From: Pseudomonas cichorii
GTDB taxonomy: Bacteria > Pseudomonadota > Gammaproteobacteria > Pseudomonadales > Pseudomonadaceae
Length of the DNA: 64,000 nt
Assembly (NCBI RefSeq): GCF_018343775.1
Contig: NZ_CP074349.1
Coordinates: 1,168,001-1,232,000, forward strand
Direction: 5' to 3'
Shown here one piece after another: positions 51,971 through 59,786 of the stretch (positions are counted from its first letter, which is position 1; each line of letters begins with the position of its first letter). The position numbers and the translations under genes are program-made. The notes under the pieces were generated by a model. The model did not search any database. It saw only the letters and a program-made list of their open reading frames with translations, and was not told where the DNA came from.

Positions 51971-52121
51971 ATCAAACAAGACGCAAGACCATGAGTCTGG
52001 AAACACCTGCTCCTGTTTGCTGCGCGACAGCGCGGCGCCGAGGCGGCGGGTGATCTCCTACGGCAGTCAGGTCGTAAATTACTTTGTACGATGCTAAATC
52101 TCTGTCGGTTTTCAGGCCTTT

Positions 52122-52147
52122 TTCGCCAGCAAGCTGCCTCCTACAGG
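52122..52147. repeat. Second-type REP element
   Basis: TTCGCCAGCAAGCTGCCTCC plus TACAGG is the common Pseudomonas REP of the GCCAGCAAGCTGGCTCCTACA kind. A diverged copy lies at 58744-58767 (TCGCCAGCAAGCTGTCTCCC). Confidence 0.65.
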
Positions 52148-52157
52148 TTTTTTTGCC

Positions 52158-54894: not shown

Positions 54895-55002
54895 GACTTT
54901 CTCCTCGATGGAGCTTGTTGCGCAGATTGGAGATGCCGCGCTCTGGAGGCGCGTTATCTTTTATCGGCGTGAAACCCCTGAGCTAAAGCCATGGCCTGGA
55001 GT

Positions 55003-55791
55003 TTATTGGCCCGGTACCGCCAGCCATTCACTCAGCGCCTGCTGGTAGGCGCCTGTCGCTTTACTCAAGTGCAACCACTGGTCGACATAGCTTTTCCAGG
55101 TCACGTCATCCCGTGGCAGCAGATAGGCCTTTTCACCGTATTGCATGTAACGGGCCGGATTGACCGCACACAGGCCCGGCATGCGCTTCTGCTGATAGAG
55201 CGCTTCGGAGGCATCGGTGATCATCACGTCGGCCTTCTTGTCCAGCAACTCCTGGAAGATGGTCTTGTTGTCGTGGAAGGCAATCGGAGCCTTGGGCAGG
55301 TAGGCGCGGGCGAAAGCTTCGTTGGTGCCACCTGCGGGTTCGATCAGGCGGACGGACGGCTGGTTGATCTGCTCGATTGTCTGGTACAGCGCCTGATCTT
55401 CGCAGCGGACCAGCGGGATCTTGCCGTCGACATCCAGCGTGTTGCTGAAGAAGGCTTTCTTCTGGCGCTCCAGGGTGACGGAGATGCCGCCCATGCCGAT
55501 GTCGCATTTACCGGCGACCATGTCCGGCATCAGGGTTTTCCAGGTGGTCGGGACCCACTCGACCTTGACGCCCAGGCTCTTGGCCAGCGAGCGTGCCATG
55601 GTGATATCGATGCCTTCGTACTCACCGTCCTCGCGCAGGAAGGTGTAAGGCTTATAGTCGCCAGTGGTACACACTGACAGCTCACCGGCCTGAATCACCT
55701 TGTCCAGATGCGAGGACGATTCCTGTGCCTGAGCCATGCCTGTCAGGCCCAGCAGAAGGGCGGCCGGTACGCTGTATTTCAGATTCATCAT
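55003..55791 (-). CDS. PheC-like periplasmic protein (cyclohexadienyl dehydratase/solute-binding fold)
   Basis: A 262-residue exported protein of solute-binding family 3, with a signal peptide (about 1-23, LLLGLTGMAQAQES). It follows P. aeruginosa PheC closely by memory: TTGDYKPYTF, GISVTLERQKKAFFS, PAGGTNEAFARAYLPKA, MITDASEAL and a C-terminal YVDQWLHL. PheC converts prephenate to phenylpyruvate and arogenate to phenylalanine in the periplasm. No transporter permease or ATPase is adjacent, which favours an enzyme over a transport role; pure ligand binding cannot be excluded. The MM start at 55791 is chosen for the signal peptide. Confidence 0.7.
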   Translation of the reverse strand: MMNLKYSVPAALLLGLTGMAQAQESSSHLDKVIQAGELSVCTTGDYKPYTFLREDGEYEGIDITMARSLAKSLGVKVEWVPTTWKTLMPDMVAGKCDIGMGGISVTLERQKKAFFSNTLDVDGKIPLVRCEDQALYQTIEQINQPSVRLIEPAGGTNEAFARAYLPKAPIAFHDNKTIFQELLDKKADVMITDASEALYQQKRMPGLCAVNPARYMQYGEKAYLLPRDDVTWKSYVDQWLHLSKATGAYQQALSEWLAVPGQ

Positions 55792-55953
55792 GGGGCTGGG
55801 TACTCGCAGCGGTTTGATTGGATTTATCGGACGCGGCAGAGTGCTCCATGGGTTGGAGCGACGTGAAGCCGCAGTCGCGTCATGCCCGTTCGTTGAACTT
55901 ACGGGTACGCATTTCGTCATTTCACAGGACGTTGAATGGAAAGGAGATCGATC

Positions 55954-56964
55954 ATGAGCAACACAACCATTTATGTACAGGCCGGTGGCGGTTACGAGCG
56001 CGTTATTGTCGGTGACAGTGAAGTGCTGGCACCCAAGGCCGGGGAAATCACCGTGCGCCTGCACGCCAACTCCCTCAACTACCACGACTTCGCGGTGGTC
56101 AGCGGCATGTGGGGCCCCAGCGAGTCACGCATTCCGATGGCTGATGGTGCCGGTGTGGTCACGGCGGTGGGTGAGGGCGTCAGCGAGTTCAAGGTCGGGG
56201 ATTCGGTGGTCAGCACCTTCTTCCCGGACTGGATCAGCGGCGAGCCGCTGGTGGAAGGCTTCGTGACTGTCCCAGGCGATGGCATCGATGGCTATGCCCG
56301 TCAGCAAGTCACCGCCCGCGCAACCTCCTTCACCCTCGCACCGGTCGGCTACACCCACGCAGAAGCCTCGACCCTGACCACTGCGGGCCTGACCGCCTGG
56401 CGTGCGCTGATGAGCGATGGCGGCCTGAAGGCAGGTGACACCGTATTGGTCCAAGGCACCGGTGGTGTTTCGATATTCGCCCTGCAATTCGCCAAAATGG
56501 CGGGTGCCACCGTCATCGCCACATCCTCCAGCGACGAAAAACTGGAGCGCCTGAGCGCGCTGGGTGCCGATCACCTGATCAACTACCGCAAGGACAGCAC
56601 CTGGGGCGAAACTGCCCGTACCCTGACCGGTGGTCGTGGTGTCGATCACATCATCGAAGTCGGTGGCCCCTCGACGCTTGAGCAGTCCATGCAGGCGGCG
56701 CGTGTGGGCGGGCATATCTCGGTGATCGGCATTCTGACCGGCGTGGCCGGGCAACTGGCAGTCGTGCCGGCCCTGCTCAAGCAACTGCGCCTGCAAGGCG
56801 TACTGGTCGGCAGCCGAACCCAGCAGCAGGACATGATCCGTGCAATCGATGCCAACGGCATGCGCCCGGTCCTGGATCGCTCGTTCCCGCTGACCGATAT
56901 CGTCGAAGCATTCCGCTATCAGGAAACCAACCAGCACTTCGGCAAGATCACGCTGGATATCTGA
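55954..56964 (+). CDS. Medium-chain dehydrogenase/reductase (quinone-oxidoreductase-like)
   Basis: A 336-residue NAD(P)-dependent MDR protein with LHANSLNYHDFAVVSG, the AGLTAWRALM helix, and the nucleotide-binding VLVQGTGGVSIFALQFAKMAGATVIATSS. The catalytic and structural zinc ligands of classical alcohol dehydrogenases are absent (no GHE motif), so it belongs with zinc-independent members. GAAAGGAG precedes the ATG at 55954. It diverges from the PheC-like gene. The substrate is unknown. Confidence 0.85.
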   Translation: MSNTTIYVQAGGGYERVIVGDSEVLAPKAGEITVRLHANSLNYHDFAVVSGMWGPSESRIPMADGAGVVTAVGEGVSEFKVGDSVVSTFFPDWISGEPLVEGFVTVPGDGIDGYARQQVTARATSFTLAPVGYTHAEASTLTTAGLTAWRALMSDGGLKAGDTVLVQGTGGVSIFALQFAKMAGATVIATSSSDEKLERLSALGADHLINYRKDSTWGETARTLTGGRGVDHIIEVGGPSTLEQSMQAARVGGHISVIGILTGVAGQLAVVPALLKQLRLQGVLVGSRTQQQDMIRAIDANGMRPVLDRSFPLTDIVEAFRYQETNQHFGKITLDI

Positions 56965-56976
56965 TCGGCTTGGGCG

Positions 56977-57636
56977 TTATGTGTAGGTTTCTTCCAGAGT
57001 TGTGAGCTGTTCTTCGATAGTCGTCATCAGGGTTTCCCAATCGGCCTGGGTTCTTTGCCAGGCCTCTCCCTCATGCACATAGAGAAAGTCCACGATGGTG
57101 TGAGTGACCTTACCTTTGCCCACGGCCCCGAACGCCTCGGCACTCAGCGCCCGCGCCAGCATCTCAAGCTCGGCGGCATGGTTCAGCCAGCGCCAGTGGC
57201 TTTTGATCACCACCTTGTCCAGCAGAATGCACTGCTTTTTGAATGCCCTCAGCGCCAGACCCAGCGGGCTGGCGCTGAGCAACGAATCGATCTGACGCAC
57301 ATTATTACCGGCCTTCAGCTCGGCATTGGGGCCGAAAAACCATTCGTTGAACCCGATCTCGATCTCCCGGAACGCCACACTGGCATCCCAGATAACCCCA
57401 AGTGCCTTGTGCTGACGCACGTCCTGCTTCCACGAACCATAAGCCTTGAACGCGACCCCCGCGATCCCTATGACTGCCAGGGCCTCGATCAGAGAAGAGG
57501 CCGAATAAATGACAAAGTAAGCATCTGCCGTCCGCACAGGATGGGTACCGGAAGCCGCGCTGTAATAAGTCGCCGCAACCACCACCATCAGCGCGAAACA
57601 GGCACTGTAGAACCCGAAGGCATAAGGGTCTTTCAT
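56977..57636 (-). CDS. Two-helix membrane protein of unknown function
   Basis: A 219-residue protein with two N-terminal membrane helices (about 7-27, FYSACFALMVVVAATYYSA; about 44-64, SSLIEALAVIGIAGVAFKAYG). A roughly 150-residue soluble, mainly helical tail follows (KQDVRQHKALGVIWDAS, FNEWFFGPNAELKAGNNVRQ, WRWLNHAAELEMLARAL). I do not recognise the family. It is convergent with the oxidoreductase and is the nearest gene to the CRISPR island, which by itself is weak evidence of any link. The start at 57636 (MKDPYAF) is chosen for the membrane segment. Confidence 0.6.
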   Translation of the reverse strand: MKDPYAFGFYSACFALMVVVAATYYSAASGTHPVRTADAYFVIYSASSLIEALAVIGIAGVAFKAYGSWKQDVRQHKALGVIWDASVAFREIEIGFNEWFFGPNAELKAGNNVRQIDSLLSASPLGLALRAFKKQCILLDKVVIKSHWRWLNHAAELEMLARALSAEAFGAVGKGKVTHTIVDFLYVHEGEAWQRTQADWETLMTTIEEQLTTLEETYT

Positions 57637-57748
57637 TATTATTCTTGCCCCCATCAGTCAAGGTGGTTAGAGCATCAACCGCTTAAATGATGGGTTTGAG
57701 GGTAGTCGAGAGTGGGAGTGTTTGCCGCTGAGATATCTGGGTGAGTAC

Positions 57749-57766
57749 GGGCGGATTTATCCGCGA
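57749..57766. repeat. Truncated REPIN half
   Basis: GGGCGGATTTATCCGCGA matches the left unit of the REPIN at 21359, and the match continues outward through GACGTCACTGAA (GACGTCATTGAA in the other copy). The opposing right unit is missing, so this is half of a REPIN. Confidence 0.65.
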
Positions 57767-58024
57767 GACGTCACTGAAGACAATGAATTTCATGTGATGA
57801 AAGGTTCATCCCGCAGACCCAACCCCGTGGGAGGGTCCTTGGCCGCGACAGCTTTCACACAAAATATGTCCGGAAATGGAGCTTTCCAGGCTGTCATGTC
57901 GCAATTTCCGTTTTTTAGCGACACGTTATTGGGTCATGTCGTTGGCGACGACCTATCAAAAAGCACGGCGCTGTCGCAGCATATGAATATCTGGCCACGG
58001 CAGACAGGAATGAACCCTTTTCTG
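57767..58024. other. Non-coding stretch before the CRISPR leader
   Basis: A 258-bp region with no recognisable gene. A 107-codon frame (57722-58045) crosses it but runs into the leader and resembles nothing I know. TGTCGC/GCGACA around AATTTCCGTTTTTTA (57897-57924) can form a weak hairpin. I found no cas-gene remnant by eye. Confidence 0.45.
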
Positions 58025-58155
58025 ACCCTCTTTTTTTCACCATAGGTTCGTCCTTTAAAAATCAAAGACTTACAAAACTTGATAAAAAAAGGGGTAAAAC
58101 GGCTGCAAGCGCATATTTTTCTTTGAAAACGGAGGGTTATCGAGGAGAGTGTCTA
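58025..58155 (+). promoter_or_regulatory. Left CRISPR leader with IHF site
   Basis: A 131-bp A+T-rich sequence directly before the first repeat. AATCAAAGACTTA at 58060-58072 fits the IHF consensus WATCAA-N4-TTR and lies 83 nt from the first repeat. IHF-bound leaders are needed for spacer integration in type I-E and I-F systems. The whole segment is mirrored, inverted, at 58541-58671 with about 16 mismatches and no gaps by hand alignment. Confidence 0.75.
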
Positions 58156-58540
58156 CTTCACTGCCGTATAGGCAGCTCAGAAACAGGTCGAAGCCAAACA
58201 GCAAGCAGAACGCATCTTCACTGCCGTATAGGCAGCTCAGAAACACAGCATGCCGTGGCGCTGGCCGCGCTGGTGCTTCACTGCCGTATAGGCAGCTCAG
58301 AAATGACGGAATGCCAAGGCCAGCAACTGGAACGCCTTCACTGCCGTATAGGCAGCTCAGAAAAAGGATGAAGCCATAGAGCGCTGAATGCGCAACTTCA
58401 CTGCCGTATAGGCAGCTCAGAAAAAGGATGAAGCCATAGAGCGCTGAATGCGCAACTTCACTGCCGTATAGGCAGCTCAGAAAGACAAAGGTGTTCATCA
58501 AAGCCGACAAGGGTCCTTCACTGCCTATACGGCAGTGAAG
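58156..58540 (+). CRISPR. Orphan type I-F-like CRISPR array, six spacers
   Basis: Six identical 28-nt repeats start at 58156, 58216, 58276, 58336, 58396 and 58456, exactly 60 apart, with six 32-nt spacers. Each repeat is CTTCA, stem CTGCC, loop GTATA, stem GGCAG, tail CTCAGAAA, which matches known I-F repeats (recognised by Cas6f/Csy4) apart from the first base and one tail base. Spacers 4 and 5 are identical. The last element (58516-58540) is not a normal repeat but a 25-bp palindrome, CTTCACTGCC-TATAC-GGCAGTGAAG. No cas gene is present in the window, so any function would need Cas proteins in trans. Confidence 0.95.
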
Positions 58541-58671
58541 AAGACACTCTGCTCGATAACTCTCCGTATTCAAAGAAAAATATGCGTTTGAGGCCGTTTT
58601 ACCCCTTTTTTCATCACGCTTTGTAAGTGATTGATTTTTAAAGGATGAACCCAATGTGAAAAAAAGAGGGT
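58541..58671 (-). promoter_or_regulatory. Right CRISPR leader, inverted, with IHF site
   Basis: Reading the minus strand, this 131-bp segment matches the left leader at about 88% and abuts the palindromic repeat, whose minus-strand reading begins with the canonical first 20 repeat bases. AATCAATCACTTA (minus strand, 58624-58636) fits the IHF consensus and lies 83 nt from that repeat, exactly as on the left. Two leaders therefore face one array. Confidence 0.75.
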
Positions 58672-58678
58672 CCAGAAA

Positions 58679-58706
58679 CTTCACGGCCGCACAGGCCGCT
58701 CAGAAA
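58679..58706 (+). repeat. Solitary diverged CRISPR repeat
   Basis: CTTCACGGCCGCACAGGCCG followed by CTCAGAAA aligns over all 28 positions with the array repeat. The stem CTGCC/GGCAG has become CGGCC/GGCCG (a compensated pair change) and the loop GTATA is now GCACA. The 5' CTTCA and the 3' CTCAGAAA are unchanged. It lies 7 bp outside the right leader, in the array's orientation, with no spacer or second repeat beside it. Confidence 0.75.
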
Positions 58707-58943
58707 ATCGACTCAGGCAGGCATCGATGGAAACCGCGACCAGTCGCCAGCAAGCTGTCTCCCACGGTGCTCTGACCTTAACGCATACAGAGCCAATTCA
58801 TTCGCGAAAGGTGTTTGAATACGGCTTTCCCGGATGAATCCGGTCCTGCATATGTTTGAAGGCCACCCTGCACAAACCTTCTAGACTTCCCGTCTCCCAT
58901 ACGCGATAACACTCAACCCGACCCCAAACCCTGTAAGCCCACC
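58707..58943. other. Intergenic region with diverged REP copies
   Basis: Between the solitary repeat and the AraC gene. TCGCCAGCAAGCTGTCTCCC (58744) is a diverged second-type REP. CCAATTCATTCGCGAAA (about 58793) and the inverted CCGGATGAATCCGGTCCTGC (about 58830) form a degraded REPIN. No gene seen. Confidence 0.55.
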
Positions 58944-59786
58944 ATGACTCAGAGCAACTGGATCAATCTTGCTCAGGACCGCGACACCGGTATCGAGACG
59001 TTGCATGCCCATTTCCAGGGGAATGCTCATGTCTACGATCCGCATTGGCATGACAGTTATCTGGTGGGTGTCACGGAGCAAGGGGTGCAGCAGTTTCATT
59101 GTCGGCGGCAGCGTTATGCCTGTACGCCGGGGCAGGTGTTCATGCTGGAGCCGGGGGAGATTCATGATGGGGATGCGCCAAGCGCAGACGGTTTTACGTA
59201 CCGGATGCTTTACCTCGACCCGGACTGGGTGGCCCGTGAGTTGCCCTCGCTGTTTGAAGACGCGCCGGATGGCTATCAACTCGGTTTCGCCAGCACCCTG
59301 GCAAGCGACTTGCGACTGACCAACGCCACTCTTTTTGCCTTTGCCGCGCTGCATGGGCAGGAAACACGCTTGTTCCGGCAAAGCGCGCTCGATGGATTGC
59401 TGGAGCGGCTGACCGGCAATCTGCGCTGGCGGCTTCGGCAGAATCAGGACCCGCGTCTGCCGCAGGTTGCCTTGCGCGCCCGTGATTATCTGCATGCCAA
59501 CTTTCGACGCGATCTTGGCCTTGATGAACTGGCTCAGGTCTGTGGTGTGGATCGTTTTCGTTTGAGTCGTGCCTTCAAGTCGGCATTTGGCTTGCCGCCC
59601 CATGCCTATCTTGTGCAACTGCGTCTGGCCCAGGCCCGAAGGATGCTGGCTGCCGGAGCGTTGCCCGTCCAGGTTGCCAGCGACCTGGGTTTTGCCGATC
59701 AGAGCCACCTGGGCCGATGGTTTCTGCGTGCCAACGGCATGACGCCATCAGCCTATCGAAACCGCTGCACGGATCTTCCAGACTAA
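58944..59786 (+). CDS. AraC-family transcriptional regulator
   Basis: A 280-residue regulator with an N-terminal cupin sensor (about 10-130, DPHWHDSYLVGVTEQGVQQF and MLEPGEIHDG) and a C-terminal double HTH (about 175-275, LGLDELAQVCGVDRFRLSRAFK and VASDLGFADQSHLGRWF). It lies 50 bp upstream of a LysE-family exporter on the same strand, a common pairing, and so probably controls that exporter. The inducer is unknown. Confidence 0.9.
   Translation: MTQSNWINLAQDRDTGIETLHAHFQGNAHVYDPHWHDSYLVGVTEQGVQQFHCRRQRYACTPGQVFMLEPGEIHDGDAPSADGFTYRMLYLDPDWVARELPSLFEDAPDGYQLGFASTLASDLRLTNATLFAFAALHGQETRLFRQSALDGLLERLTGNLRWRLRQNQDPRLPQVALRARDYLHANFRRDLGLDELAQVCGVDRFRLSRAFKSAFGLPPHAYLVQLRLAQARRMLAAGALPVQVASDLGFADQSHLGRWFLRANGMTPSAYRNRCTDLPD

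Follow-up and report, generated by a model that had tools for sequence, protein, structure and literature searches.

A type I-F CRISPR array between two inverted leaders in Pseudomonas cichorii, very probably the scar of a collapsed CRISPR-Cas locus

Architecture of the array

The window, i.e. the whole stretch of 64,000 nucleotides from the plant-associated Pseudomonas cichorii that was analysed (contig NZ_CP074349.1), contains a short CRISPR array framed by two protein-coding genes (Table 1). With its 28-bp repeats and spacers of about 32 bp it is a type I-F array; the six perfect repeats match Rfam CRISPR-DR4, and spacers 4 and 5 are identical. Instead of the one leader at one end that is expected for an array of this type it carries a leader at each end, the right one being inverted. 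Positions 58024-58175 pair with 58521-58672 as an inverted repeat free of gaps, with arms of 152 nt, 345 nt between them and 16 mismatches, which continues past the leader into 20 nt of the CRISPR repeat. The slightly shorter arms described in the initial annotation (58025-58155 and 58541-58671) were reproduced in the arm alignment with exactly 16 mismatches in 131 bp and free of gaps. Its description of an inward-pointing leader at each array end holds as well; the inverted repeat encloses the array, and the leader-repeat junction is kept in both arms. The enclosed repeats are seven in number, six of them intact and of type I-F and the last one chimeric; none of the six intact ones is inverted (0/6). 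An inverted repeat by chance is rejected at 16 mismatches in 152 bp. An assembly artefact is an unlikely source of the inverted arms because 16 positions distinguish one arm from the other and the whole genome is assembled in a single contig of 5,984,143 bases. The best supported reading of this architecture is the fusion of two arrays, with a leader at each end.

Both leaders show, at the mirror positions 58060 (+) and 58624 (-), the motif WATCAANNNNTTR, which we take to be IHF-like; four matches of it were observed in the window and 0.79 expected. Outside the right leader there is a single degenerate forward repeat (58679-58706), still recognized as CRISPR-DR4, in which stem pairing is kept through a two-sided change from CTGCC/GGCAG to CGGCC/GGCCG. 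Its place is occupied by a forward array (array 3) in the two related genomes G018 and G391, so that it probably represents the trailer-end remnant of such an array. As the length of the 60-bp unit is divisible by three, an open frame of 204 aa (58070-58684, minus strand) extends in antisense direction over the entire array, and gene-finding software could take it for a protein.

Table 1. Features of the array and its surroundings (positions in the window)
Feature	Position	Strand	Evidence
Left flanking gene, 225 aa, no Pfam family	56977..57654	-	syntenic in G018, G391 and P. capsici (L054)
Left leader (array-1 leader)	58024..58155	+	identity to leader 1 of G391 and G018; left flank collinear with G018
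IHF-like motif, left leader	58060-58072	+	
Six perfect type I-F repeats, separated by five 32-nt spacers	58156..58483	+	60-bp spacing
Sixth spacer, last before the joint	58484..58515	+	
Putative fusion joint, chimeric repeat 7	58516..58540	no strand	crossover product at CTGCC
Right leader, inverted, pointing into the array	58541..58672	-	place and orientation of leader 2 in G018 and G391
IHF-like motif, right leader	58624-58636	-	
Degenerate forward repeat outside the right leader	58679..58706	+	RF01317, 36.2 bits
Right flanking gene, AraC-family regulator	58944..59786	+	PF02311 and PF12833; syntenic in G018, G391, L054 and L055

The chimeric repeat

Repeat 7 has the sequence CTTCACTGCCTATACGGCAGTGAAG and is composed of ten bases from the start of a forward repeat and then fifteen from the end of an inverted one, i.e. 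forward CTTCACTGCC is joined to inverted TATACGGCAGTGAAG. This joint is a palindrome with 10-bp arms and a 5-nt loop, and the reversed right leader starts directly after it. A forward and an inverted repeat copy have, if read on one strand, two 5-bp words in common, CTGCC and GGCAG, which are the arms of the repeat stem. A computed crossover at CTGCC yields exactly the 25 bases observed; at GGCAG it would yield the other loop. The predicted folding energy of the joint is -17.4 kcal/mol vs -8.6 kcal/mol for an intact repeat. Antisense copies of the repeat had been expected to fold still, and this is borne out by prediction (-10.9 vs -8.6 kcal/mol in sense direction). The further suggestion that convergent transcription from both leaders could silence or alter crRNA production is probably moot in this genome, since no Csy4 was found.

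Missing cas genes and spacer content

Profile searches of the P. cichorii genome for Csy2, Cas1 and Csy4 gave no match (csy1, csy3 and cas3f were outside this genome-wide search), and the Cas1 and Csy4 searches found their targets in both relatives run alongside. The array can thus be regarded as an orphan that should neither acquire spacers nor give processed crRNA, because the tested proteins of adaptation and processing are missing.

Its spacers show no match with up to nine mismatches in the cas stretches of G018, G391 and P. cichorii ICMP 3353, the contig of the latter being without csy4 and most of csy3. In these three cas stretches the array thus lacks what defines anti-cas orphan arrays, namely spacers that match I-F cas genes. 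Searched against phage sequences only, the five unique spacers gave partial matches, the best with E 0.02 among the best six per spacer; one spacer was matched in a Mycobacterium phage at 94% coverage and 90% identity (E 0.08). We judge these phage matches to be due to chance.

Corresponding loci in related genomes

At the site of the window two relatives of the same genus, G018 and G391, have two arrays that face inwards around cas genes, and this means that the orphan array has relatives with cas genes at the same syntenic site. The order in G018 is array 1 (+, 22 repeats), csy4-csy3-csy2-csy1-cas3f-cas1f, array 2 (-, 17 repeats) and array 3 (+, 5 repeats), and it is the same in G391. The cas operon of G018 lies on the minus strand within an interval of 8.7 kb between the arrays, the leader of array 2 is at its right end, and the right flank of the window follows after array 3. 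On the left the collinearity of the window with G018 extends across leader 1 (own positions 55000-58485, 88.9%), and on the right the alignment resumes at own position 58856 against G018 and 58813 against G391. These intact loci, which belong to the P. cichorii group, resemble the window in site, repeats and leader family and differ from it by the presence of the cas operon and most of the arrays. A contig of P. cichorii ICMP 3353 (L055) aligns to the cas operon of G018 at 82% and has two minus-strand arrays. The corresponding stretch of P. capsici Pc19-1 gave no alignment to the cas operon and shows one degenerate forward repeat beside the right flank.

The last spacer of array 2 is common to G018, G391 and ICMP 3353 (3-4 mismatches), which marks array 2 as the same array in all three. 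In P. capsici Pc19-1 (L054:5992-9163) the place of the relatives' cas genes is taken by a TIR-domain gene, a DUF2971 gene and a gene of 393 aa without Pfam match; the I-F site of the window may be a hotspot of defence genes. The P. cichorii genome has two further CRISPR remnants: beyond the window, at C1:1241009-1241170 (L039), a lone minus-strand repeat whose leader has 86.8% identity with a leader of P. capsici Pc19-1, and at C1:1244662 a single degenerate repeat. A short intergenic piece of the window (52086-52154) has two counterparts in the G018 locus (84%) and is probably a dispersed repeat.

Joints and mirror scars in other genomes

The window-type joint, written as TTCACTGCCN5GGCAGTGAA, was found in 2 of 398 genomes of the genus (the own genome and G391), in 2 of 369 genomes of the class (the own genome and G615, whose match is without an I-F repeat in a 3-kb locus) and in none of the viral contigs. 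In G391 it is located outside the cas locus (L061:1501-1523, C4:321817-321839), where a forward array ends in CTTCACTGCCTATAAGGCAGTGAAG with no leader behind. The opposite form, in which the inverted half comes first (TCTNAGCTGCCN5GGCAGCTNAGA), occurs in seven of the 398 genus genomes (G009, G151, G278, G353, G367, G377 and G403; L065-L071, L072), and a reversed control pattern in none of the 398. Two viral contigs match this mirror pattern, both without an I-F repeat; their matches presumably reflect an RNA-phage stem-loop. The joint patterns were exact and decayed joints are therefore missed; the mirror pattern was run in the genus sample and the viral contigs.

In six of the seven mirror scars minus-strand repeats lie to the left and plus-strand repeats to the right of the joint at normal spacing, the right one in G367 being degenerate, and in G377 there are just decayed repeats beside it. 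The array of G353 shows 12 repeat matches in good order, joint included. No leader was found between the halves of these arrays, and both of their ends are trailers. The loop of the left repeats in G151 is GTGTA, and that of both the right repeat and the joint is GGATA; the loop of the joint fits one side only, and the halves differ in G403 as well, as would be expected from the joining of two different arrays. Csy4 was detected in none of the seven genomes, which taken alone is weak evidence because the base rate in the genus is low (11/302). The mirror scars resemble the window in that two opposite arrays are fused at the repeat stem in a genome without Csy4, and they differ in that the arrays point away from the joint, with no leader and a trailer at each end. 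We interpret them as outward-facing arrays that were fused with loss of both leaders.

Intact counterparts of such scars exist. The scars of G367 and G278 have both flanks in common with the intact loci of G211 and G148, in which the arrays are directed outwards from the cas genes; between G367 and G211 the common flanks extend over 8.4 kb (89-94%) on one side and 6 kb (86%) on the other side of a 10.4-kb cas interval. For G151 one flank is matched, for G353 a piece of 0.4 kb, and for G009, G403 and G377 no flank match was obtained in the stretches compared; there is no spacer common to scars and intact loci. Among 11 further csy4 loci from 10 genomes, two have outward arrays (G211, G148), four tandem arrays (G198, G099, G291, G134) and five one array in the stretch; a fused joint occurs in none of them. 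Array orientation thus probably decides which scar is left by cas loss, as judged from a few pairs of intact locus and scar.

A fourth array of G018 (L038, around 46601) lies at a site that has one flank in common with G151 and G367. The intact I-F loci in G211 (L104/L105) and G148 are bordered by this flank too, so that I-F systems of the genus may commonly reside at this site.

Origin of the array and of its right leader

The architecture, the lack of cas matches, the relatives with an intact locus, the joint that agrees to the base and the mirror scars together favour one reading: the feature is very probably what remained when a type I-F CRISPR-Cas locus collapsed and its arrays 1 and 2 became fused. 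Fusion of two opposed arrays after loss of the interval between them had already been proposed in the initial annotation, and it gains support from the inward arrays around cas genes in two relatives, from the absence of Cas1, Csy2 and Csy4 matches in this genome and from the stem-homology joint. The ancestor would have been organized as the two living relatives are, with array 1 and its left leader, the cas genes, and array 2 on the opposite strand, its leader at the right end. A deletion with end points in repeat 7 of array 1 and in the repeat of array 2 next to its leader would have removed the rest of array 1, the cas operon and all of array 2 except its first repeat, leaving leader 1, six repeats, the chimeric repeat and the inverted leader 2. 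As forward and inverted I-F repeats are complementary, they could pair and thereby bring together two copies of CTGCC, and slippage or end joining across this word might then produce the palindromic joint. The order of events and the slippage step are deduced from the present arrangement. As no intact repeat is inverted, no post-fusion spacer from the right leader has been retained.

Some observations count against fusion of arrays 1 and 2, among them the lack of a spacer common to mirror scars and intact loci. The right edge requires a second event, a deletion that would have taken most of array 3. The sole other window-type joint among the 398 genus genomes, that of G391, is without a leader. 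Finally, the right leader is closer to leaders of the leader 1 type than to leader 2. The left leader is 94.8% identical to leader 1 of G391 and 86.6% to both leader 1 of G018 and the right leader. For the right leader the identities are 86.6% with leader 1, 85.8% with leader 5 and 77.6% with leader 2 of G391, and 73.1% with leader 2 of G018. In a tree of 15 leaders it falls within the group of leaders 1, 2, 3 and 5 (100/99). The best tree places it beside leader 5 of G391 (59/65), and a constrained tree that unites it with the two leaders 2 is not rejected (p-AU 0.164). We infer its identity as leader 2 from position and orientation, not from sequence, and would see in it a paralogous leader of old date, with exchange between leaders in its past. 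A leader survey gave 3 of 398 genus genomes, a number that is possibly low with at most two candidates scored per genome.

The affinities of the right leader also bear on other origins. By a template switch in the hairpin of repeat 7, leader 1 could have been copied backwards, with the cas genes lost separately. Such an inverted duplication would suit both the resemblance to leader 1 and the position of the joint in a hairpin stem, and a tree with the two arms as sisters is not rejected (p-AU 0.316). The left leader, however, is far nearer to leader 1 of G391 than to the right arm, and of the seven sites at which these two nearest leaders differ, the right arm agrees with the left leader at three, with G391 at three and with neither at one. 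Moreover, cas loss would need its own event, and an inverted leader at the very place of the relatives' leader would be a coincidence, so that we consider this origin quite unlikely. A fusion with another opposed array, whose leader of the array 3 or array 5 type was inverted or altered by exchange before the fusion, would agree with the best tree and with the four (G018) and five (G391) leader-array units that are found near the locus in both orientations. Against it, leader 3 in G018 and G391 and leader 5 in G391 point in the opposite way, which demands an extra inversion, and the tree support is weak; its probability appears very low. Hardly credible is a maintained two-way array, in which both leaders are used and sense and antisense RNA play a regulatory role: the IHF-like motifs and leader-repeat junctions are kept in both arms and antisense repeats fold, but matches to Csy4 and Cas1 are missing, and a simple scan of the array region, in itself weak evidence, revealed no sigma-70-like promoter.

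Known systems and implications of the probable fusion

Loss of cas genes between two arrays is already known. E. coli strains without I-F cas genes are described as keeping one array, CRISPR4.1-2 (PMC4489801). It resembles the array of the window as a single short I-F array at a place where the cas genes formerly lay between two arrays. Within the only E. coli locus with cas genes that was examined, 56 of 56 repeat matches have one direction. The remnant of E. coli K-12 is unlike the window in having one leader and no palindromic joint; BLAST revealed no inverted leader copy there, and the same test finds that of the window. The K-12 stretch was matched in 5374 of 5426 E. coli genomes, with detail from two. 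Orphan I-F arrays that target cas genes are described for E. coli (PMC8616872, PMC2886076); the window is similar in having an I-F array without I-F cas genes and dissimilar in that its spacers match none of the three cas stretches compared. Where I-F arrays occur in pairs, they nearly always lie on either side of the cas locus, with orientations independent of each other (PMC12814883). A search of titles and abstract openings, with subscription journals thinly covered, found no description of a two-leader array, a stem-word joint or its mirror form.

The similar weld marks in relatives suggest a recurring route by which CRISPR immunity is lost. A loss in one step would be possible if any forward and any inverted repeat can pair, with their matching stem words. 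It is conceivable, though we stay slightly on the doubting side, that opposed I-F arrays act as a built-in self-deletion device with one-step cas loss and a stereotyped palindromic scar, the fossil being set by orientation. Such a device could, and here too we hesitate just short of an even judgement, turn inward arrays into a scar with two leaders, as in the window, outward arrays into one with two trailers and no leader, as in the seven other genomes, and tandem arrays into one with a single leader, as in E. coli K-12.

Loss of a whole CRISPR-Cas system is usually visible as presence or absence. In the present case the joint is legible base by base, relatives have kept the intact locus, and a stem-word joint of mirror form recurs in other species of the genus. 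A leader at each end of an array, or none, can be the scar of a fusion rather than a new array design, which calls for caution. If the fusion of arrays is right, array orientation predicts the remnant, losses become countable from a simple sequence mark, and the loss rate as well as the recombination genes involved could be measured in a laboratory strain. If opposed arrays should indeed delete their own cas genes, scars across genomes could serve to count and date CRISPR-Cas losses.
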